The position numbers were made by a program, and so were the translations under genes. A stretch of 54,037 nucleotides of DNA from an uncultured Verrucomicrobia subdivision 3 bacterium (GTDB lineage: Bacteria; Verrucomicrobiota; Verrucomicrobiia; Limisphaerales; UBA11358), in the NCBI GenBank assembly GCA_903827955.1, contig CAIKKJ010000054.1:66298-120334 (forward strand), given 5' to 3'. The notes below the pieces were generated by a model. The model was not told the origin of the DNA and did not search any database. It was given only the letters and a program-made list of their open reading frames with translations. Numbering within the stretch: position 1 is the first letter of the stretch; every line of letters starts with the position of its first letter. Shown piece after piece: positions 28,676 through 44,809 of the stretch.

Positions 28676-30199
28676 TCAATTCACCGCCGCCTTCGCCGCC
28701 GCGATGGTTTTGCCGACGGCGAGGTTCATCACGTTTTCCTCGTTGCAATGCTCGCGTTCGAGGATGCCGGTGATTTTGCCCTCGTGCATCACGGCCACGC
28801 GGTCGCTGACGTTAAGGACTTCCTCCATGTCGCTGCTGATCATGAGAATCACGCCGCCGCCATCCGCTAGCTCGCGCATGAGCCGGTAAATTTCCGCCTT
28901 CGCGCCGACATCAATGCCGCGCGTCGGTTCGTCGAGGATCATCACCTTGGGATTCATCGAAAGCCATTTGCCGAGGACGACCTTCTGCTGATTGCCGCCG
29001 CTCAAGTTCAGCACCAGCGTCTCGCCACCGGGTGTTTTGATGTTCAGCGATTTGATCTGCTCGTCCGTGACCTTGCGCTCGCGTTCCTTGCTGATGAGGT
29101 TGAACGTGGAATATTTTTTCAGCGACGGCAGTGTGGTGTTCTCGCGCACGCTCATGCCGGTGACGAGTCCTTCGCCGCGCCGATCTTCGGGCACGAGAAA
29201 AATTCCGTGACCAATCGCATCAGCGGGTGAATTGATGGAAATGCGTTCGTCACCAATCGTCACCTCCGCGCTGCCGGCGTTATCCAAGCCAACCATCGCC
29301 TTCACAATCTCCGAGCGCCCTGCCCCAACGAGTCCGGCGAATCCCAGAATCTCGCCGCGCGTCGCATCGAACTCCACCGTCCGCGCCGGATAGCGGCTGG
29401 AACGCGCGTTGCGGACTTTGAAAAATCCCGGCGTCTTCGCGCCGGTGGAAGCGGTGTAGGAACTTTTGATTTCGCGGCCGACCATCAGGCTCACAATCTT
29501 GTCGTGACAGATGTCGGCCTTGGGCAGTTCGCCGGCGTTCTTCCCGTCACGCAACACGACGACACGGTCGGCGATGTGCTCCACCTCGCTCAAGCGGTGC
29601 GAAATATAGACGATGCTCACGCCCGATTTCTTCAATTCAAGAACCAGTTCGAGCAAACGATCCGTCTCCGTCAACGTCAGGCTCGACGTCGGCTCGTCCA
29701 TGATGATGATGCGCGAGTTGAGCGAGAGCGCCTTAGCGATCTCCACCATCTGTTTCTGCGCGATAGAAAGCTTTTCCAGCGGCGTCTTGCTGGAGAGTTC
29801 GAGGCCCAGCCGTTTCAGCAACGGCTCGGTGTCGGCATGGATTTTTTTGAAGTCAATCAGGCCAAGCGCATTCTTCGGCTCGCGTCCGAGAAAGACATTC
29901 GCCGCCACGTCGAGATTGTCGAGGACGTTCAACTCCTGATGGATGAACGCCACGCGCAGTTTCATCGAGTCAGTGACGTTGTTGATCTTGACCGCCACAC
30001 CGTCCATGAACAGTTCCCCGGCGTCCGGCTGATAAACGCCGCCGAGGATCTTCATCATCGTGGACTTGCCCGCGCCATTCTCACCGCACAGCGCCACGAC
30101 CTCGCCCGCGCCGATGTCTAGCGAGACGTTGTCCAACGCAATGACGCCAGGGAATCGCTTGCCGATTCCGCGCATGGAGAGGAGCGGGCCGTTGCTCAT
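28676..30199 (-). CDS. RbsA/AraG-type sugar ABC transporter ATP-binding protein
   Basis: The 507-residue protein has two fused ABC domains as in AraG, RbsA and MglA. Domain 1 has Walker A GENGAGKST (39-47), an ABC signature in EKLSIAQKQMVEIAKAL, and Walker B IIIMDEPTSSLT. Domain 2 has the degenerate Walker A GLVGAGRSE typical of this class, then LSGGNQQKVVLGKWL and VMILDEPTRGIDVG. It energises monosaccharide import, by context L-arabinose. A 108-base gap containing an inverted repeat separates it from the binding-protein gene. Confidence 0.94.
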   Translation of the reverse strand: MSNGPLLSMRGIGKRFPGVIALDNVSLDIGAGEVVALCGENGAGKSTMMKILGGVYQPDAGELFMDGVAVKINNVTDSMKLRVAFIHQELNVLDNLDVAANVFLGREPKNALGLIDFKKIHADTEPLLKRLGLELSSKTPLEKLSIAQKQMVEIAKALSLNSRIIIMDEPTSSLTLTETDRLLELVLELKKSGVSIVYISHRLSEVEHIADRVVVLRDGKNAGELPKADICHDKIVSLMVGREIKSSYTASTGAKTPGFFKVRNARSSRYPARTVEFDATRGEILGFAGLVGAGRSEIVKAMVGLDNAGSAEVTIGDERISINSPADAIGHGIFLVPEDRRGEGLVTGMSVRENTTLPSLKKYSTFNLISKERERKVTDEQIKSLNIKTPGGETLVLNLSGGNQQKVVLGKWLSMNPKVMILDEPTRGIDVGAKAEIYRLMRELADGGGVILMISSDMEEVLNVSDRVAVMHEGKITGILEREHCNEENVMNLAVGKTIAAAKAAVN

Positions 30200-30214
30200 A
30201 TTCTGAATTATTTT

Positions 30215-30299
30215 TTAACCACGAAACACACTAAACACACGAAAGCAAAGAATGAACTTCGCAAACAACTTTTTCGCGTGGCTCATGTATTTCGTGGTT
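30215..30299. repeat. Imperfect long inverted repeat between SBP and ATPase genes
   Basis: The left arm (30217-30245, beginning AACCACGAAA) and the reverse complement of the right arm (30271-30299) share their first ten bases exactly and further blocks of identity over about 28 bases, around a 25-base loop. The arm sequence is the same TTAACCACGAA-type unit found beside the GNAT gene. In RNA it could fold into a long stem-loop after the binding-protein gene. It may act like REP elements that give binding-protein mRNA extra stability, or it may be a small mobile palindrome. Confidence 0.75.
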
Positions 30300-30307
30300 C
30301 CACCAAA

Positions 30308-31294
30308 TCACTTGCCGAGAATTTTCGCGAGGTCAGCCTTGAACGACGCGATGTCGTCCTTCTTCAGGCTGCGCGTCGCAACGATCTGCTTGCCGCCGGC
30401 GAGAGCGGCTTTGTCGCCGCCGAGATACTTCGCCATCTTGGTCATGGACTGTTTGCCGAACTCAAACGGCTGCTGCACGACCGTGCCGTAGATGTCGCCG
30501 CTCGCGACGCCGTCGAGCGTCTCGGCGTTTTCGTCGAAGCAGACGATCTTCACCTTGCCCTGTGCATTGGCGGCGCGGACGGCATTGAGGATGGCCGGAC
30601 CGTTGTAATTGTAGAGGCCGACGAGCATGGAGATGTCGGGATATTTCACGAGCGTATCCTCAGCGTTCTTCTGGGCGCGGACGTTGTCGGTGTCGTCGGT
30701 GCGAAGGTCAATGACTTCCACCTTTGAGCCTTCGAGCTCCTTCTTGATGCCGCCAAAACGATCCTTGGAGTTCTGCGCATCGGCGTAGCCGACGAACACC
30801 ATGATCTTGCCACCGTTGGGCAGCGCTTCTTTGATGAGCTTGCCAGCTTCCTGGCCCGCCGCGAAGTTGTCCGTGCCGATGTAGCAGACGCGCTTGCTGT
30901 CCGCCGCATCGCTGTCACAGCAGATGAGCAACGTCTGCGCGGCGATCTTGTTCAGGAAATCAATCTGGTTCTTCGGATCAATCGGACTGACCGCGATGCC
31001 GTCCACACCCTTGGCGACCAAGTCGTCAAGGATCTGCTGCTGCTCGGCGGCGCTGCCGGTGGACGGGATGCGGAAATCCACATCCACGTTGCCCAGTTCT
31101 TTCGCCGCTGCTTCGCAACCCGTGCGGGCGATGGTCCAGAATGTCGCTGCGTTGTTGGAGACGAACGCTAGCTTCAGTTTTTTGCCGGCAGCAGGCGCGT
31201 TACCGCCGTCAGATTTCGGCGCTTCAGATTTGCCGCAGCCGGAGACGATTGCCGCGACACACAGCGCGGCGAGAAGGGTTTGAATTTTTTTCAT
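30308..31294 (-). CDS. RbsB-type sugar-binding lipoprotein of the ABC importer
   Basis: The 328-residue protein has a lipoprotein signal with lipobox VSGC (Cys20), then a Peripla_BP_4 domain starting KLKLAFVSNNAATFW. DGIAVSPIDP, the hinge-region VCYIGTDNFAAGQEAGKLI and LVGLYNYNGPAIL are typical of ribose/galactose/arabinose-binding proteins. It is anchored outside the inner membrane and delivers monosaccharide to the permease. L-arabinose is the likely ligand by context only. It lies 29 bases after the mutarotase gene. Confidence 0.93.
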   Translation of the reverse strand: MKKIQTLLAALCVAAIVSGCGKSEAPKSDGGNAPAAGKKLKLAFVSNNAATFWTIARTGCEAAAKELGNVDVDFRIPSTGSAAEQQQILDDLVAKGVDGIAVSPIDPKNQIDFLNKIAAQTLLICCDSDAADSKRVCYIGTDNFAAGQEAGKLIKEALPNGGKIMVFVGYADAQNSKDRFGGIKKELEGSKVEVIDLRTDDTDNVRAQKNAEDTLVKYPDISMLVGLYNYNGPAILNAVRAANAQGKVKIVCFDENAETLDGVASGDIYGTVVQQPFEFGKQSMTKMAKYLGGDKAALAGGKQIVATRSLKKDDIASFKADLAKILGK

Positions 31295-31323
31295 GGTCTG
31301 GTTTTGGTGGTTAGTTGCCGTTT

Positions 31324-32469
31324 TTATTTCGCGGAAAATTTATAGATGATGGTGTTGTGGTATTTCTCGCCGGGGTTCAGCGTGGTGGTCGGGAACGCGG
31401 GATGATTGGGTGAATCAGGATAGTGCTGCGGCTCGAAGCAGAAGCCTTCGCGGAATTTGTAAGTCCAGCCGCCTTTGCCGGTGATGCTGCCGTCGAGGAA
31501 ATTGCCGGTATAGAACTGCGTGGCCGGCTCGGTGCTCCAGACTTCCATCGTGCGTCCACTGGTCGGTTCGTTGACGCTGGCCGCGAGCGAAAGTTCGTTG
31601 CCCTGCTTGTTCAAAACCCAGTTGTGGTCGTAACCACCACCGAGTTTGATTTGCTCGTCGGTGGCATTGATGCGTTCGCCGATTTTGTGCGGCGTGGTGA
31701 AATCAAACGGCGTTCCGGCAACCGGACGCAATTCACCGGTCGGAATCAAACCGCCGTCCACGGGCGTAAATTTGTCCGCATTGATGGTGACGACGTGACC
31801 AAGCACATCGCCGCTGCCGCGCAAGTTGAAGTAAGAATGATGCGTGAGATTCACAACCGTCTTCTCGCTGGTCGTCGCCGAGAAATCCACACGCAGTTCG
31901 TCGTCTTCCGTGACGGAATAAATCGCCGTGACTGACAGCGTGCCGGGATAGCCTTCTTCGCCAGACGGGCTGACGTAAGTGAGAATCAGCGACGGACCGT
32001 GCGCCGTCGGCAGCGCGCGACTGGTCCAGACGACTTTGTCAAAGCCCTTCAAGCCGCCGTGCAGATGGTTCGGCATGTTGTTCGTGGCGAGCGTATATTC
32101 CACGCCGTCGAGCGAAAATTTTCCGCGCGCAATGCGGTTGCCGTAACGCCCGATAAGCGCGCCGAAATACGGCGTGCTCTTGAGATAGCCGTCCAAGTTG
32201 TCGTAACCGAGCACCACGTCTCCGAACTTGCCGTGTTTGTCCGGCGTCTTGAGCGACGTGACGATGCCGCCATAAGTCATGATCGTCGCCTCCATGCCGT
32301 GGCTGTTGCGCAGCGTGTAGAGTTCAACGGCCTTGCCTTCGGGCGTCTGGCCGAAGTCGGCCTTCGTGATGGTTCCTTTGGGAGTGTTTGACATAGATTC
32401 GCAGCCGGTGAAACACGCCGCCGAAATTCCCAGCGCCGTGAGGGTGATCAGTTGGATAATTTTTTTCAT
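31324..32469 (-). CDS. galM: Exported aldose 1-epimerase (mutarotase)
   Basis: The 381-residue protein has an N-terminal signal with a possible lipoprotein site (CFTGC, Cys23), then the galactose mutarotase fold from about residue 35. GRYGNRIARGKF, NHLHGG (134-139), THHSYFNLRG and CFEPQHYPDSPN are the GalM active-site blocks (two histidines and a glutamate). GalM proteins usually interconvert aldose anomers in the cytoplasm; export puts this one where glycosidases release sugar and before import. L-arabinose is the expected substrate here, with galactose possible. The ATG at 32469 is chosen because the signal peptide begins there; the longer in-frame extension overlaps araD. Confidence 0.9.
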   Translation of the reverse strand: MKKIIQLITLTALGISAACFTGCESMSNTPKGTITKADFGQTPEGKAVELYTLRNSHGMEATIMTYGGIVTSLKTPDKHGKFGDVVLGYDNLDGYLKSTPYFGALIGRYGNRIARGKFSLDGVEYTLATNNMPNHLHGGLKGFDKVVWTSRALPTAHGPSLILTYVSPSGEEGYPGTLSVTAIYSVTEDDELRVDFSATTSEKTVVNLTHHSYFNLRGSGDVLGHVVTINADKFTPVDGGLIPTGELRPVAGTPFDFTTPHKIGERINATDEQIKLGGGYDHNWVLNKQGNELSLAASVNEPTSGRTMEVWSTEPATQFYTGNFLDGSITGKGGWTYKFREGFCFEPQHYPDSPNHPAFPTTTLNPGEKYHNTIIYKFSAK

Positions 32470-32491
32470 GGTTCGTTTGGTTGGTGGAAAT

Positions 32492-33190
32492 TTATTTCTG
32501 GCCATAATAAGCATTCGCACCGTGCTTGCGAAGAAAATGTTTGTCGAGCAAAGCACTTTGCATCGGTTTCAACTTGGGATTAATGCGCAAAGTCTCGCTG
32601 TTGAGCTTAGCGATGAATTCCAGCACGCTCGCATTGTGAACCGCGTCATGAACGTCCGCACCCCAGGTGAACGGCCCGTGGCTCGCGACCAGCACGGCAG
32701 GATGCTGCGACGGATCGTATTTCAACTTTCGGAACGTCTCCACGATCACGTCGCCCGTGTTCGCTTCGTAATTATTTTTGATTTCCGCCGCTGTCAGTTT
32801 GCGCGTGCACGGGACGTCGCCATACCAGTAATCCGCCTGCGTCGTGCCGTAGGCCAGCAACGGCCGGCACGCCTGCGCCCACGACGTCGCGAACAAACTG
32901 TGTGTATGCACCACGCCGCCGATTTTCGGAAAAGCGCGATAAAGAATTAGATGCGTGTCCGTATCTGAACTCGGCTTGAGTTTGCCCTCGACGACCTTGC
33001 CGGTTTCGAGCGACACGCAAACCATGTGCTGCGGTTTCATCTCCGAATACGGCACGCCGCTGGGCTTGATGACCATTAGGCCGCGCGCGCGATCCACGCC
33101 GCTGGCGTTGCCCCACGTCTGGATGACCAAACCTTTGGCGACCAGATCAAGGTTCGCCTGGCAGACTTCTGCTTTTAATTTTTCTAACAT
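32492..33190 (-). CDS. araD: L-ribulose-5-phosphate 4-epimerase
   Basis: This 232-residue class II aldolase-fold enzyme converts L-ribulose 5-phosphate to D-xylulose 5-phosphate, the last step of the pathway. The zinc histidines are His95 and His97 (VVHTHSLFA) and His171 (VASHGPF), exactly the E. coli AraD numbers when the ATG at 33190 is used, which supports that start over a TTG at 33199. GNASG (27-31) and KPSGVPY (42-48) bind the phosphate. It is 22 bases upstream of the mutarotase gene. Confidence 0.96.
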   Translation of the reverse strand: MLEKLKAEVCQANLDLVAKGLVIQTWGNASGVDRARGLMVIKPSGVPYSEMKPQHMVCVSLETGKVVEGKLKPSSDTDTHLILYRAFPKIGGVVHTHSLFATSWAQACRPLLAYGTTQADYWYGDVPCTRKLTAAEIKNNYEANTGDVIVETFRKLKYDPSQHPAVLVASHGPFTWGADVHDAVHNASVLEFIAKLNSETLRINPKLKPMQSALLDKHFLRKHGANAYYGQK

Positions 33191-33205
33191 AAGATTCAAA
33201 AGTTT

Positions 33206-33231
33206 TTAACCACGAATACACGAAAACAAGG
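33206..33231 (+). repeat. TTAACCACG-type repeat, left of the GNAT gene
   Basis: This unit begins TTAACCACG and continues with an A-rich CACGAAAA segment. It lies in the 45-base gap between araD and the GNAT gene, and an inverted copy lies on the other side of that gene (33717-33740). The two align over about 23 positions with one gap and two mismatches. Confidence 0.75.
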
Positions 33232-33235
33232 GAAA

Positions 33236-33694
33236 TCAAGCCGTGCTGTTATCTCCCATCCGATATGCGTCTAGATTATGAACCGCCATAAAATTTTCTG
33301 GATGCGTCAGCGGACGAAAGCCAAATTGCTCATAAAGACCGTGGGCATCTTGCGTAGCCAAAATAAACCGCCTCAACCCCTGTAGTTCAGGATGGTTGAC
33401 AATCGCCTTCATCAGCAATTTAGAAACGCCACGACCACGATGCTCTGGAACGACGAAAACATCAGCCAGATAAGCAATCGCAGCAAAGTCTGAAATGACT
33501 CTGGCAAAACCAACCTGCCGGCCATCGAGATATGCACCAAAGCAAAGCGAGTGTCGGATTGACCGCTCCACAACACTCCGAGGAATTCCCTTTGCCCAAT
33601 AAGACGCGGTCAAAAAATTATGAACGAGGGCTACATCCAATCGGCTCTGCTCGGAGGAAATTTCGTAAGCGATGGATGTTTGAGTGCCAGCCAT
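33236..33694 (-). CDS. GNAT-family N-acetyltransferase
   Basis: The 152-residue protein has the GNAT core: AYLADVFVVPEHRGRGVSKLL contains the acetyl-CoA pyrophosphate loop (R/Q-x-x-G-x-G/A form, here HRGRGV), followed by the late strand and YEQFGFRPL near the C-terminus. The acetylated substrate is unknown; it resembles small-molecule or antibiotic-type acetyltransferases of the Acetyltransf family. It has no evident role in arabinose use although it lies between araD and araB. It is flanked by inverted TTAACCACG-type repeats, suggesting insertion as a unit. No signal peptide is present. Confidence 0.87.
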   Translation of the reverse strand: MAGTQTSIAYEISSEQSRLDVALVHNFLTASYWAKGIPRSVVERSIRHSLCFGAYLDGRQVGFARVISDFAAIAYLADVFVVPEHRGRGVSKLLMKAIVNHPELQGLRRFILATQDAHGLYEQFGFRPLTHPENFMAVHNLDAYRMGDNSTA

Positions 33695-33716
33695 AAATTC
33701 AGTTGTGTATCAGTTT

Positions 33717-33740
33717 TCTTTTCGTGTCTTGCGTGGTTAA
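33717..33740 (-). repeat. TTAACCACG-type repeat, right of the GNAT gene
   Basis: On the minus strand this unit begins TTAACCACG and continues with a CACGAAAA block, so it is inverted relative to the copy at 33206-33231. It lies in the 56-base gap between araB and the GNAT gene. Together the two copies bracket the GNAT gene. Confidence 0.75.
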
Positions 33741-33750
33741 TTTCTTTTCT

Positions 33751-35427
33751 TCACTTCCTCACCCGCCCACGGATTTCAATCAGCTTCTTCATCACGCCAT
33801 AAAGCTTTCCGCCGCCGTCCTTCGTGCCGAAGGCGTCGTGGAGTTGCATGTAGAGCGCGTAAAGTTCCTTGTAAACCGCGTGGGCTTTCGGGTTCGGTTT
33901 GTAAACCGTCGGCTTGAGGCCGGTCATCTTCTTCTGCGCGGTGGCGAAGTCTTTGTGCGCCCCGGCTACCACGGCGGCGGCGATGGCGGAACCAAGCGCG
34001 CAGGTTTGCGCCGAGCGGGAGATCTTCATCGGACGCCCCGTCACGTCGGCGTAAATCTGCATGACGAGCGGACTTTTTTCCGCGATGCCACCGCAGTTCA
34101 CCACCGACGAAATCTTCACGCCGTATTCTTCAAAACGGTTGATGATGGTCAGCGCGCCAAACGCCGTCGCCTCGATGAGCGTGCGGAAAATTTCCGCCGG
34201 CGTCGTGTAAAGCGTCTGTCCGATGAGCAAGCCGGTAAGCCGCTGGTCAACAAGGATGGTGCGATTGCCATTGTTCCAATCCAACGCGAGCAAGCCGCTT
34301 TCGCCGGGCTGCAACTTCAGTGCGCCCTTGCTCAATTCAACATGCGAACCCGCTTCCTTGCCGCCGGGCTCAATGTAATTGACGAGCCAGTTGAACAAGT
34401 CGCCCACCGCTGATTGCCCCGCTTCGAGGCCGAAATATCCTGGCAACACGCTGCCGTCCACGATGCCGCAAAGGCCGGGCACATCCGCAAGCTTCTTGGT
34501 GTTCGCAGCAATCGCAATGTCGCAAGTGCTCGTGCCGATGATTTTAATAAGGCATCCCAGCGCAACGCCGGAACCGACCGCGCCAAGGTGCGCGTCGAAC
34601 GCGCCGACAGCGACCGGGATTCCAGCCGTCAAACCCGTGCGCTTAGCCCACGCCGCCGTGAGTCCACCGACCGCGCGGTCAATCGTGTGAACGCGCGTTG
34701 TGAGCCGCGCGCGAAGTTTACCGAGCTTGGGATTCAGCTTCGAAAGAAATATTGCGTCAGGGTAGCCGCCCCACTTCGCATTCCACATCGCCTTGTGACC
34801 GGCGGCGCAGACGCCCGCAACAAACCTGCTCGGATGTTCCGTGCCCGTGAGCGCGGCAGGAACAAAGTCGGAGAGTTCAATCCATGAATGCGCAGCGTTG
34901 AAAACCTCTGGCGAGACGCGCAGACATTTCAGCACCTTGCTCCAGAACCATTCGCTCGAATACGTCCCGCCGCATTTGGAGAGATATTGCGGGCGCATTT
35001 TTTTTGCGAGCGCGGTGATCTCGGCGGCTTCGTTGACGCCGGTGTGATCCTTCCACAACCACGCCATCGCCGCCGGATTGTCCGCAAACTTTTTCTGGAA
35101 TGCGAGCGGCTGACCGTTCGCATCTACCGGCAGCGGCGTGCTGCCAGTCGTGTCCACGCCAATTCCGATGACTTGGCTCGCGCTGAAACCCTTCACAGAT
35201 TTTTTCGCCGTGGCGAGCGCCTGCTTGATGGTGATCTCAGCGCCGTTGACGTAATCGGCCGGATGCTGCCGGGCGAGATTCGGGTCGCGCGCGAGAATCA
35301 CGCCCTGCGTGCCGTGCGAATAAGTCCACACAGCGGCGGCGATTTCCGCACCGTTGGCGACGTTGACGATGAGAGCGCGAACCGAGTTCGTGCCGTAGTC
35401 GAGACCGATGGTGTATTGGGATTTCAT
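33751..35427 (-). CDS. araB: Ribulokinase
   Basis: The 558-residue FGGY kinase phosphorylates L-ribulose in the cytoplasm. GLDYGTNSVRALIV (8-21) is the N-terminal ATPase-fold phosphate loop; GVDTTGSTPLPVD (90-102) and SEWFWSKVLK (158-167) are typical of AraB; the catalytic base is likely Asp278 in VGAFDAHLGAVGSG. The C-terminal half carries GGIAEKSPLVMQIYADVTGRP. Length matches AraB (about 560) rather than xylulokinase. Its start overlaps the stop of the preceding GH51 gene by 4 bases. Confidence 0.95.
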   Translation of the reverse strand: MKSQYTIGLDYGTNSVRALIVNVANGAEIAAAVWTYSHGTQGVILARDPNLARQHPADYVNGAEITIKQALATAKKSVKGFSASQVIGIGVDTTGSTPLPVDANGQPLAFQKKFADNPAAMAWLWKDHTGVNEAAEITALAKKMRPQYLSKCGGTYSSEWFWSKVLKCLRVSPEVFNAAHSWIELSDFVPAALTGTEHPSRFVAGVCAAGHKAMWNAKWGGYPDAIFLSKLNPKLGKLRARLTTRVHTIDRAVGGLTAAWAKRTGLTAGIPVAVGAFDAHLGAVGSGVALGCLIKIIGTSTCDIAIAANTKKLADVPGLCGIVDGSVLPGYFGLEAGQSAVGDLFNWLVNYIEPGGKEAGSHVELSKGALKLQPGESGLLALDWNNGNRTILVDQRLTGLLIGQTLYTTPAEIFRTLIEATAFGALTIINRFEEYGVKISSVVNCGGIAEKSPLVMQIYADVTGRPMKISRSAQTCALGSAIAAAVVAGAHKDFATAQKKMTGLKPTVYKPNPKAHAVYKELYALYMQLHDAFGTKDGGGKLYGVMKKLIEIRGRVRK

Positions 35428-37391
35428 TTAAGCCGGATGATGGTGAATGAGTTAGCCGGAAATTCATGTTGGAATTCCGGGCTAGAAATGTTCAAGGCCG
35501 TTTCTTTCGGAGAAATTTTCTGCGGCGCGGCAAACGAATTTTCACCACGCGGTTCTCCGGCCAGCACGATTGTTTTTGCCGCCGAAGAAATTTTTCCAAG
35601 ACCAGCGAGGTTGAGTTGCACGGCAACGGGCGCATTGTCGCCGTTGACGACCTTGAGGATGATTTCCCCGCTGGCATTGTCGCGGGTGGCCGAGGCGAAC
35701 AGCTTTGCGTCATCGGCGGCCTCCAGTTTCATCGGCAGCACCACGTCGCCGTGGTTGAGACTGAACATCTGCTGCACATAATAATTCGGCGTGCGATAGA
35801 CTCCGAGGCTGTTCACCCAAATCAGGTCGGGCGTCCACTGCCACGCCTCGGAGTTGGCGAACAGCGGCGCATAGCTCGCCATGCGGACGACATCGCCATT
35901 GCGTTCAAGGCCGGTCATGCACGCGGCCTCGGCGATGGCGCATTCAAGGGTGTTCCGGTTTTTTACGCTGACGATGTAGTCGCTCTGCGCGGCGTATTCG
36001 CCGAAGAACACTTTCGGCCCATTGCGATCGTAATTGTCATAGCGGTGCGTGCTGTTGAAAAACCAATCGGGCTTGGCGTAGCAATGTTCGTCCACGATGT
36101 CGGCGTGCAACTCGCGGAGTTTCGGCCAGGCGTATTTGAAATGGGCGTCGTCCGGCGACGGGCCGGCGCTGGAGACGAGTTGGATTTCCGGGTGCTGCGC
36201 TTTAAGCACGGCGTGAAATTTTGTGCAGCGTTCAAGGTAAGGCGCGTCCCAATTTTCATTGCCGACACCCATCATTTTCAAGTTGAAAGGTTCGGGATGC
36301 CCCATTGCCGCGCGCTGTGCGCCCCAAATCGTGTTCGTTGCGCCGTTGGCAAATTCAATCAGGTCGAGCGCGTCCTGGATGTAAGTGCCGAGGTCGCTCA
36401 TCGCGCAGGCTTCGCCGGAATTGAACTGGCACGCAAGGCCGCAACTCAAGATCGGCAGCGGCTGCGCGCCGATGTCTTCGCATAATTGAAAATATTCGTA
36501 GAAGCCAAGGCCGAACGATTGAAAATAATCAGGCGCGGGGCGATGGAGAAATTCGACGTTCCAGCGGTTGAGCATCAGTTCGCGTTCCGCCACCGGGCCG
36601 ATGGTTTTCTTCCACTGATAACGGTTCGTGAGATAGATGCCCTCGACGATGCAGCCACCGGGAAAGCGCATGAAGCCGGGATGCAAATCGGCGAGAGCCT
36701 GCACCATATCGGCGCGCAAACCGCCGGGACGATTTTTCCAAGTGTGTTCGGGGAACAGCGAAACCATGTCGAGATCCACCGCGCCTTTGCCTTCGAGCAG
36801 CACATACAGTTTTGCCTTGGCGTCGGTGTCTTTCGGATGCAGCACGGCAGTGATCTTCTTCCAATCGCCGGAAAAATCTTTCAGCATCACGGAGTCCAGC
36901 ACCGCGCCGTCGCCGCCGTAAAGCGCGACGCGCAATCTGGCGTTGCCGGAGACGTTGCGAAGTTGTGCGGAGAAATTGTAAGCCTCGTCTTTCTTCACAC
37001 CGATGCCGCGAAAGCCTTCGTTCGCGACGCCGAACACATCCTTGCCCTGCGACTCGATGCGGAGGTAGTGCGGGTTCTTGGCGTTGAAAGGATTCTCGTC
37101 GCGGATGGCCAGCGAACCGAGCGACTTGCTCGGCGAGAGTTTGCTCCAGCCCATCAGCGCATCGGGAAATTCAAACGCGCGGTTCTTCACCAGTTCCGCG
37201 TAAAGCCCGCCGTCCGCGCCGAAGTTGATGTCCTCGAAAAAGATTCCCCACATTGCAGGATTTAGTTTTGCGCCCGGTTGGTCGGTTTGCACGGTGAGGG
37301 ATGCCGCGTGCATGGTGATGCCACCGACAAACAACCCGACAAACAACCCGACAAACAACGACGAATACAAAATGGAATTTTTTAGAGTCAT
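35424..37391 (-). CDS. Exported GH51 alpha-L-arabinofuranosidase (1)
   Basis: The 655-residue protein has a signal peptide whose hydrophobic core is a tandem LFVG repeat (residues 12-23), a sugar-binding-like beta domain (about 85-215), then the GH51 barrel. The acid/base is Glu379 in GVGNENW and the nucleophile Glu465 in VFFGEYA; WGIFFEDINFGADGG near residue 48 is a GH51/exo-arabinofuranosidase hallmark. It should release terminal alpha-L-arabinofuranosyl groups outside the cytoplasm. It is coupled to araB by ATGA overlap and starts 4 bases after the GH127-like gene. Confidence 0.93.
   Translation of the reverse strand: MTLKNSILYSSLFVGLFVGLFVGGITMHAASLTVQTDQPGAKLNPAMWGIFFEDINFGADGGLYAELVKNRAFEFPDALMGWSKLSPSKSLGSLAIRDENPFNAKNPHYLRIESQGKDVFGVANEGFRGIGVKKDEAYNFSAQLRNVSGNARLRVALYGGDGAVLDSVMLKDFSGDWKKITAVLHPKDTDAKAKLYVLLEGKGAVDLDMVSLFPEHTWKNRPGGLRADMVQALADLHPGFMRFPGGCIVEGIYLTNRYQWKKTIGPVAERELMLNRWNVEFLHRPAPDYFQSFGLGFYEYFQLCEDIGAQPLPILSCGLACQFNSGEACAMSDLGTYIQDALDLIEFANGATNTIWGAQRAAMGHPEPFNLKMMGVGNENWDAPYLERCTKFHAVLKAQHPEIQLVSSAGPSPDDAHFKYAWPKLRELHADIVDEHCYAKPDWFFNSTHRYDNYDRNGPKVFFGEYAAQSDYIVSVKNRNTLECAIAEAACMTGLERNGDVVRMASYAPLFANSEAWQWTPDLIWVNSLGVYRTPNYYVQQMFSLNHGDVVLPMKLEAADDAKLFASATRDNASGEIILKVVNGDNAPVAVQLNLAGLGKISSAAKTIVLAGEPRGENSFAAPQKISPKETALNISSPEFQHEFPANSFTIIRLK
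37324..37359. repeat. 12-bp tandem repeat x3 in a signal-peptide coding region
   Basis: Three perfect copies of CCGACAAACAAC stand in tandem. On the gene strand they encode repeated LFVG units that form the hydrophobic core of the GH51 signal peptide. Because the unit is 12 bp, copy-number change would lengthen or shorten the core by four residues without a frameshift. Confidence 0.93.
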
Positions 37392-42424: not shown

Positions 42425-44809
42425 TTATTTTGATTTCAACCGCAGCACGGAGAATGAATTTCCCGGAAAAATACGTTTCAGATTCGTGCCGCTGAATTTC
42501 ACCGCCTCAGTCTTCGGCGAAACTTTCGTCGGTTCAGCAAGAGAATTTTCATCCGTGCCACTTTCGGAAGTCAGCACGGTGGCCGTCCCCTGCCCGGTCA
42601 AGGTTGCGCCGCCGAGATTAATTTCCGTTTCGAGCGGCTGCGTGTTCGCGTTGACAACTTTCACGATGAGATCGCCAGTTTTTTCGTCCGTCGCAGCGAC
42701 TGAATACAGACTTGTTACTTTGCTGTTCACGTCGAAGTCCACATCATGAATCATTTCACCGTCGAGCCAACACTTCACATTTTTCCCGCTGACCGTGACC
42801 TTCAGATCATACCAGCGATCCGTCTCGATATGACTCGGTTTTGAATCCAGCGTGCCGCCGGCTTCAATGCCATCAGCCGTGTTGCCCCAACCGCCGATGT
42901 TCCACCAGGTGCGATCCTCGTTGCCGCCGATGCGGAACATGACCATGAAACCTTCCGCGCCGGAAATTTTCCGCGCCTTCATCGTGATCGTGTAATCCAA
43001 CCATTCACGTTTGCCCGCAATGGCGCGGATGAATTCCTTTTCCGCCGTCTGACGCAAAGCACCGTTCACCGCTTTCCAATTTGCTCCGTCGCCGAGCAGC
43101 TTCCACCCTTTCGTGTCCTTGCTGAAATCAGACGCGAACAAAACTTTCCCATCCGGCGCGGTCACTTTGATGTCCTTGTATTCCGCCGCCGTGTTCCACG
43201 TCGCCACACCGATCATGCCGCCAGTCGGCGCGATTTCGGCCATCGGTGACTCGACCGTCGTCGGCAACGAAATATCGCCGCGATTTTCCGCGAACATTTT
43301 TTGGACGTAATAACTCGGCAGCCCATACCACTTCTCGCTGTCGAAATTAATGAGGTCAGGGTTCCACGCGCGATGATTCAGGTTCACCAGCAACGGTGCG
43401 TAACTCGCCATGACGACGTGATCAGAGTTGCGTTCGAGGCCGGTCATGAACGCCGCTTCACCAATCGCGCCGCGCAAATTTCCGAGGCCGCAGTTACGCG
43501 TCACCGCGTATTCGCCGACAAAAACTTTCGGGTCGTTACGGTCATACTTGTCGAAGTGCGTCGCGTGGCGCATGAAAAATTCCGGTGTGTCGTAAAAATG
43601 CTCGTCCTCGACATCAGGCTTCGGCGCTCTCGGATAACCACCGGCCCAGTTGTTCGCGACAAATTTTATTTCCGGATACTTCGCGTGAATCGCATTCACA
43701 AACACCGGCCAGCGTTCGTTGTAGGATGGCCCGCCGTTTTCATTCCCGATTTCCATGTAAACCAAATTGAACGGCGCGGGATGGCCGGCCTTCGCACGCA
43801 TCGCGCCCCACAAAGAATTTGTCGGACCGTTGGCATATTCCACCGCGTCGAACGCGTCCTGCACCCATTCGTTCATGCGATCCATCGGAATGATTTCCTT
43901 GTGGCTCATGCCGATGTTTATGTCAAACAACGGCGTCGCGCCGAGATCTTCGGCGAGCTGAAGATACTCGTGGAAGCCAAGACCGTGCGTGGAAAAATAT
44001 CCCCAGATGTTCCAGAGCGGCTCACGCACGTCCACGTTGCCAACGGTTTTCTTCCAATGATTCATGTGCGCGAAATCATCACCTTCCACCCAGCAGCCGC
44101 CGGGGAAGCGGAGAAATTTCGGATGTAACGCGTCCAGCGACTCGCCGAGGTCAACGCGCAAGCCGTGATCTTTCCATGTTTTTTTTGGAAGCAACGAAAC
44201 CATGTCGAGAAACAAAACACCTTTGCCATCGCCGGAAATTTCCAGCTTTGCTTTCGGATCGCTGCCACTCGCGGTCAAGTCCAGCGTGTGATAATTCCAC
44301 TTGCCGCCGATGCCGGAAATCTCACCGCTCGCGAGAGTTTTTCCGTCCGCGCTCAAAATTTTCGCCGTGAGCTTCCCTTCAAATTTTTCGCCGCGCGCGG
44401 CGAGCTTCAGTGTGTAACCGTCGCCGCTAACCATGTTCATCCCCCAGTAACCTTCGTTGACGAGCGAGAACGCACCGTCCGCTCTGATGCGAAGCGATTT
44501 ACGATTGAACGCATTCAGCGGCACGGGTTGACCATGCACGTCCGCCGTGCTGATGACCGCTTCGCCTTTGGCGCTGGTGAATTTCCAGTCCGCCGGCTTG
44601 TCCGCGTCCTCGAAAGAACGGTTCCGCACGAGTTCGGGATAAATGCCACCGTCGGCAGAGAGATTGATGTCCTCGAAGAAAATACCCCAGAGCGTCGGCG
44701 AGATGGCGTGCGCCGGATGCGCGACGTCCACGGAAATTTTCGCGGACTGAGCGTTGGTTGCAATGGCCGTGGCAAACAACGCAGCGACGAAATATTCTTT
44801 TAGCTTCAT
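42425..44809 (-). CDS. Exported GH51 alpha-L-arabinofuranosidase (2) with inserted lectin-like domain
   Basis: The 794-residue protein has a signal peptide (FVAALFATAIATNAQSA), then the GH51 pattern WGIFFEDINLSADGG, acid/base Glu357 in EIGNENG and nucleophile Glu433 in VFVGEYA. It is about 140 residues longer than the other GH51 here. The extra part (about 527-705: YKDIKVTAPDGKVLFASDFS...WWNIGGWGNT...DRWYDLKVTVSGKNV.CWLDGE) looks like a concanavalin/LamG-type domain placed inside the C-terminal beta domain, which resumes at TGDLIVKVVNANTQP. The insertion may bind polymer or extend the active site. Confidence 0.92.
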   Translation of the reverse strand: MKLKEYFVAALFATAIATNAQSAKISVDVAHPAHAISPTLWGIFFEDINLSADGGIYPELVRNRSFEDADKPADWKFTSAKGEAVISTADVHGQPVPLNAFNRKSLRIRADGAFSLVNEGYWGMNMVSGDGYTLKLAARGEKFEGKLTAKILSADGKTLASGEISGIGGKWNYHTLDLTASGSDPKAKLEISGDGKGVLFLDMVSLLPKKTWKDHGLRVDLGESLDALHPKFLRFPGGCWVEGDDFAHMNHWKKTVGNVDVREPLWNIWGYFSTHGLGFHEYLQLAEDLGATPLFDINIGMSHKEIIPMDRMNEWVQDAFDAVEYANGPTNSLWGAMRAKAGHPAPFNLVYMEIGNENGGPSYNERWPVFVNAIHAKYPEIKFVANNWAGGYPRAPKPDVEDEHFYDTPEFFMRHATHFDKYDRNDPKVFVGEYAVTRNCGLGNLRGAIGEAAFMTGLERNSDHVVMASYAPLLVNLNHRAWNPDLINFDSEKWYGLPSYYVQKMFAENRGDISLPTTVESPMAEIAPTGGMIGVATWNTAAEYKDIKVTAPDGKVLFASDFSKDTKGWKLLGDGANWKAVNGALRQTAEKEFIRAIAGKREWLDYTITMKARKISGAEGFMVMFRIGGNEDRTWWNIGGWGNTADGIEAGGTLDSKPSHIETDRWYDLKVTVSGKNVKCWLDGEMIHDVDFDVNSKVTSLYSVAATDEKTGDLIVKVVNANTQPLETEINLGGATLTGQGTATVLTSESGTDENSLAEPTKVSPKTEAVKFSGTNLKRIFPGNSFSVLRLKSK

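Follow-up and report, generated by a model that had tools for sequence, protein, structure and literature searches.

The window, a stretch of 54,037 nt on contig C54 of the host genome (G000; 3.86 Mb, 95% complete), carries an ara operon on its minus strand in the order araB, a GNAT gene, araD, an aldose epimerase gene and sugar ABC transporter genes; all coordinates given here are positions within this window. The ribulokinase gene araB (33751..35427, minus strand; NF003154, 2.5e-200) lies upstream and the L-ribulose-5-phosphate 4-epimerase gene araD (32492..33190, minus strand, ATG at 33190; NF006047, 2.7e-107) lies downstream of a 560-bp segment that runs on the minus strand from the araB stop codon to the araD ATG (33191..33750). 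Inside this segment, a gene that reads with the ara operon (33236..33694, minus strand) encodes a 152-aa GNAT acetyltransferase which matches PF00583 (8.7e-15) and PF13508 (9.5e-15), and whose closest solved relative is XCC2953 (2OZH; 5.6e-49). The profile matches confirm all three genes as they had been named in the original prediction. Because only about 22 bp separate the GNAT start codon from the adjacent repeat arm, the gene probably depends on the ara operon for its transcription. Elsewhere in the window, two arabinofuranosidase-like genes (35424-37391 and about 43380-44690) lie about 7.4 kb apart and are about 73-75% identical at the DNA level over several stretches, which makes them a diverged duplication.

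The GNAT gene is bracketed by an arm at the araD end (33206..33231, plus strand; TTAACCACGAATACACGAAAACAAGG), which holds two CACGAA words spaced 8 bp apart, and an arm at the araB end (33717..33740, read on the minus strand; TTAACCACGCAAGACACGAAAAGA), in which the word spacing is 9 bp. The two form an inverted pair (AAAAGAAATTAACCACGCAAGACACGAAAAGAA and AAAAGTTTTTAACCACGAATACACGAAAACAA) with an alignment score of 40, which none of 2000 Markov shuffles reached (best shuffle 39). The opposite orientation of the repeats claimed for the two gaps is confirmed, and the proposed alignment over about 23 positions with one gap and two mismatches is correct to within one mismatch. Moreover, these arms are iterations of 6-7 bp words (CACGAA, mostly at a 9-bp period) and not plain terminal repeats. 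Three exact copies of TTAACCACG are present in the window, at 30215 (plus), 33206 (plus) and 33732-33740 (minus), and the first of these opens a hairpin element without cargo, whose left arm (30215..30244, plus strand) carries CACGAA and CACTAA words spaced 9 bp apart and whose right arm lies at 30272..30299 (minus strand). This inverted pair, also predicted, is real, with 28-nt arms that are 79% complementary and separated by 27 nt. A pattern search of the 3.86-Mb genome with ACCACGAAN{1,4}CACGAA gave eight matches and its reversed control gave none; such repeats are rare, go together with insertions and are not scattered at random over most intergenic gaps. An Rfam scan of 29500-34500 returned nothing at E ≤ 1.

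For comparison with the host genome, 48 congeners were available, and the junction was compared in 31 congeneric genomes, the host included, in which araB lies upstream of araD. Ten of these 31 junctions are empty, with only 1-16 bp from stop to start, and the GNAT gene is found at this junction in the host alone, its homologues in other genomes being located elsewhere on other contigs. The gene is therefore not conserved at this place among the 31 junctions, and the expectation that related junctions without it exist holds for all 30 others. Among the 11 gaps of at least 250 bp, eight have significant inverted arms at both ends, and the seven of these outside the host enclose different inserts: a 179-aa protein (G044; arm words CGCGAA/CACGAA), a 177-aa protein (G026), a 217-aa protein (G036; CACAGAT), a WD40-like 491-aa protein (G040; CACGGAT), a DnaJ-domain 531-aa protein (G029; CACGGAT), a composite insert with a GxxExxY gene after its left arm (G015) and a 252-bp insert in which a clear ORF is absent (G037), alongside the GNAT gene of the host with its arm word CACGAA. 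The wording of the arms is common to both arms of one insert and differs between inserts. G027 carries a homologue of the G026 cargo at the junction and has no recognisable arms, as would be expected of an older, eroded insertion, and short hairpins without cargo occupy the junction in G033 and G019. That two short A/T-rich repeats resemble each other by chance around a vertically inherited gene might be suggested by arms which are short and imperfect, but this explanation, to which we give almost no credence, is already contradicted by the junction survey, because the GNAT gene is missing from the 30 other junctions and matched arms bracket other inserts there, and it also leaves unexplained that no shuffle reached the observed score.

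Homologues of the GNAT protein with 55-59% identity are encoded at the rpsI-argC junction of four congeners (G009, G017, G021 and G024; loci L006, L007, L008 and L010). No arms surround these four rpsI-argC genes, which indicates that the GNAT gene is not an obligate gene of the element, and they represent a possible source pool of cargo. A GNAT gene within arms is known from this one junction. In two genomes a second copy of the first part of araD precedes the intact gene and is separated from it by an insert; the copied part spans about 35 bp in G015 (L094) and about 47 codons in G007 (L098). In G015 this insert carries REP-like repeats and the gene for a Y1 transposase, which lies in a REP-like insertion of its own, distinct from the armed element and with repeats of another kind.

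At the 30.2-kb hairpin site, a related hairpin is kept in close relatives, the site is empty in G002 with a 1-bp gap, and in G028 a GxxExxY gene lies between arms at exactly this site, which supports the suggestion that 30215-30299 is a form of the element without cargo. With the GxxExxY gene at the araB-araD junction of G015, each of the two window sites thus holds a GxxExxY gene in at least one relative. A second cassette is present in the host genome, where an ORF for a 124-aa membrane protein lies within an arm pair between ruvC and ruvA; the ruvC-ruvA gap is 0-1 bp in five relatives, and G031 has an armed insert of its own. Across the loci read (L401-L430), the ruvC-ruvA gap is a hot spot with different small ORFs, iterated hairpins of multiple dialects and two arm-bounded cassettes.

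The GxxExxY family (PF13366/TIGR04256) is present in 43 of the 49 genomes. Of its 90 loci in the genus, 83 have flanking inverted arms at p ≤ 0.05 and 71 still do so at p ≤ 0.005, and the same statistic detected arms at only 6 of 79 control genes (ParE toxins 3/28, SBP-family 3/27 and araD 0/24). Each GxxExxY arm repeats its word about three times (ACAGGAT, CGCAGAT, CACAGAG, CAAAGG, CACGAA and others), and arms start with TTAACC/GCCC/CACGAA. The tree of the GxxExxY proteins parallels the arm words. Protein identity and arm similarity were correlated in Mantel tests from which pairs at homologous insertion sites had been removed, with r = 0.36 (n = 85), rising to 0.41 (n = 153) when cross-phylum loci were added, and the maxima over 2000 permutations were 0.08 and 0.10. 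Among named sequences, the element genes are closest to those of Verrucomicrobia subdivision 3/Limisphaerales MAGs. Five loci (L131, L137, L138, L157 and L160) seem to share an orthologous site at which a GxxExxY gene lies upstream of a sugar-nucleotide epimerase/dehydratase-like gene; the arm words at this site differ by species (AACAAAGG versus GCGAAGACGCAAAG), as if arms and protein had changed together. In G043, several GxxExxY genes (C72, C18, C116, C89 and C120) contain in-frame TAG codons, which reflect either decay or TAG recoding. A PADLOC defence search with the GNAT and GxxExxY proteins gave nothing of weight, the GxxExxY match reaching just E 0.001 over 46 residues.

All four arms in the window have their best match among the arms of one GxxExxY subfamily, marked by the motif GACFEVYKEKG, and for the short GNAT arms the match is modest (scores of 18 and 15 versus 13 for the best other subfamily). 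A scan of a genome collection for this subfamily found 80 loci in Verrucomicrobiota, Planctomycetota, Calditrichota, Hydrogenedentota, Acidobacteria, Chloroflexi, Gamma-, Beta- and Zetaproteobacteria, Bacteroidota and others, 71 of which have inverted arms. Neighbouring words in these arms are spaced exactly 9 bp apart in 188 of 213 pairs, and word pairs were present in both flanks at 42 of the 80 loci, compared with 0 of 80 after shuffling and 13 of 85 loci of other subfamilies. The host genome has four detected GxxExxY genes, all of other dialects, in an assembly that is 95% complete. At the level of whole genomes, the number of CACGAA arms looks, by eye, weakly related to whether the matching GxxExxY subfamily is present.

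Arms of a similar plan also accompany another gene family, since in the 49 genomes 22 of 29 loci (L201-L230) of PF05635 four-helix-bundle genes have inverted iterated arms, built from the words GTTGAGG, GTTCAGT and AGTCCAC at a spacing of about 7 bp. Given these arms of other words, GxxExxY may be neither the only agent nor a direct one; the PF05635 loci apparently represent a parallel element family, and the two are either analogous families or products of one common mechanism. The armed four-helix-bundle genes, together with the many bare hairpin copies and the high diversity of the cargo, would also suit a situation in which the arms are MITE-like or REP-like mobile hairpins moved by another enzyme, with the GxxExxY and GNAT genes as captured passengers. 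We consider this rather unlikely, because passive capture does not predict that words track GxxExxY subfamilies across phyla at a fixed 9-bp spacing, and because ParE, an unrelated family of mobile small genes, is without arms in all but 3 of 28 loci. The arms could nevertheless accompany GxxExxY genes by descent, without being a substrate of the protein.

An AlphaFold2 model of GxxExxY (pLDDT 93.5) has its best fold match in SSO0001 (4IC1; Z 10.1), a Cas4 protein, and also matches lambda-exonuclease, restriction and Holliday-junction-resolvase folds. Residues D70, E80, K82, Q94 and Y98 are invariant or at least 90% conserved and, by analogy with the PD-(D/E)XK superfamily, may be catalytic. 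A sequence search of the PDB returned no relative of GxxExxY, so the fold assignment follows from the AlphaFold2 model, which predicts a PD-(D/E)XK nuclease of the Cas4/lambda-exonuclease-like type.

The flanks of the arms were compared for target-site duplications, which the original prediction had proposed to look for. Over 135 GxxExxY loci, the direct-repeat score outside the arms was 4.73 for a locus's own flanks and 4.49 for cross pairs, and a general signal of short duplications was absent; the araB-araD flanks are of low complexity. Long direct duplications of the target, variable in length, are present at a few loci (58 bp in L117, 30 bp in L341, and L345), and duplication scores of at least 14 were obtained for 3.9% of 129 loci and for 0% of cross pairs. 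Such variable long duplications, those of the araD start in G015 and G007 included, fit break repair with variable copying better than staggered cutting of the transposase type. These results also bear on whether the insert stems from a known IS family, as a regular mobile insertion cassette or MITE with the ends of a DDE transposase. Inverted ends around cargo without a transposase are a known type of mobile insertion cassette (MIC), and the GNAT cassette shares these three traits. We nevertheless hold this origin to be very improbable, as the arms are iterated words unlike IS-type terminal inverted repeats, target duplications of fixed length were not detected across the GxxExxY loci, and no transposase lies between such arms among the loci read. 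Of the earlier view of a small non-autonomous cassette with one gene and no transposase, the cassette itself is supported by the empty junctions, the other inserts with matched arms and the filled hairpin site, whereas simple terminal repeats give way to iterated words.

We suggest that the GNAT gene is probably a passenger of a non-autonomous cassette from an undescribed family of elements, in which a GxxExxY nuclease is the resident gene. In this proposal, inverted arms of iterated CACGAA-type words would form the ends of the cassette, and the family would occur in three forms, namely bare hairpins such as that at 30215-30299, cargo cassettes (the GNAT gene at ara, the 124-aa membrane protein at ruvC-ruvA and many proteins in relatives) and forms in which a GxxExxY gene is resident. 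The nuclease may recognise the iterated words, either as DNA or as an extruded hairpin, and may cut at them and so start the movement of any segment with cognate arms, after which host repair would finish the insertion in short operon gaps. The GNAT cassette would have moved in trans, because none of the four GxxExxY genes detected in the host belongs to the matching subfamily. The evidence for movement is comparative and consists of presence or absence at the junctions together with the linkage of arms to genes. The earlier interpretation of the cassette is partly supported, and what it lacked is that the arms are written in the dialect which accompanies a specific GxxExxY subfamily.

The arms might instead act at the level of RNA, with an mRNA stem removed by RNase III or by the resident nuclease, so that insertion is neutral as for the intervening sequences (IVS) of 23S rRNA, and with ordinary recombination moving the cassettes. 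A 23S rRNA intervening sequence with a 28-bp terminal stem and an internal ORF is excised by RNase III (PMC4990558), a plan shared by the present elements, and the PF05635 family of these sequences has iterated arms here. At the ara junction, the principal cargo ORFs point in the direction of the operon. GxxExxY genes, however, are co-directional with both neighbours at just 73 of 157 loci by a rough ORF estimate, and dialect-specific words at 9-bp spacing resemble recognition of sequence by a protein, beyond what stem formation needs; we regard the RNA-level explanation as unlikely.

The proposal can be extended tentatively, and with slightly more doubt than trust, to GxxExxY proteins as the mobilising nucleases of a large unrecognised class of transposase-free elements in many phyla, in which each subfamily would move itself, bare hairpins and single-gene cargo into operon gaps through its own arms. 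GxxExxY (TIGR04256/PF13366) is a common family named by its motif alone, and the subfamily-specific arms give it a testable function as the sequence-specific nuclease of a mobile element. If true, this would account for a class of intergenic repeats and of orphan genes embedded in operons in Verrucomicrobiota, Planctomycetota and others, and it suggests how single genes could come to lie in operons with neither a transposase nor an integrase at work. No papers on the role or mobility of GxxExxY were found in the open-access literature, and the arm repeat words appear in no paper of the open-access literature searched; judged against this literature, the evidence points to an undescribed element family.

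Compared with known systems, the cassette resembles MICs and MITEs in being non-autonomous, in its inverted ends, in arbitrary cargo that replaces a transposase and in presumed movement in trans. It differs in having iterated words where those elements have IS terminal repeats, in the lack of a detected fixed target duplication, and in an apparent partner that is a single-domain protein of the predicted PD-(D/E)XK nuclease type rather than a DDE transposase. REP/RAYT systems (REPtrons, BIMEs) likewise have a chromosomal gene of nuclease type bracketed by enzyme-specific inverted repeats, and many hairpin copies without cargo, but they use a Y1/HUH transposase and a GTAG/CGTC tag, whereas a Cas4-like fold is predicted here and the CACGAA-type iterations carry no tag. 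Membership in REP/RAYT is ruled out by the lack of the GTAG/CGTC tag and by bracketed genes which are GNAT or GxxExxY rather than a Y1 transposase. The 23S rRNA intervening sequences with an S23p/IVP four-helix-bundle ORF (PF05635) share the single ORF within stem-forming inverted ends and are proposed to be selfish, and in this genus their family has iterated arms outside rRNA; the present elements differ in occupying an operon gap, in enclosing a GNAT or GxxExxY gene and in the type of arm word. The position of the cassette between araB and araD and its GNAT product rule out its membership in that group. Integron cassettes (attC) likewise consist of single promoterless genes that are recruited at a site and whose function is arbitrary, but here arms flank both sides of the gene, and there is no array and no attC-type layout. 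In dialect and in site, the window agrees with the proposed class of iterated-arm elements, since all four arms fit the GACFEVYKEKG subfamily best and its two sites hold GxxExxY genes in relatives, araB-araD in G015 and the 30.2-kb hairpin site in G028.
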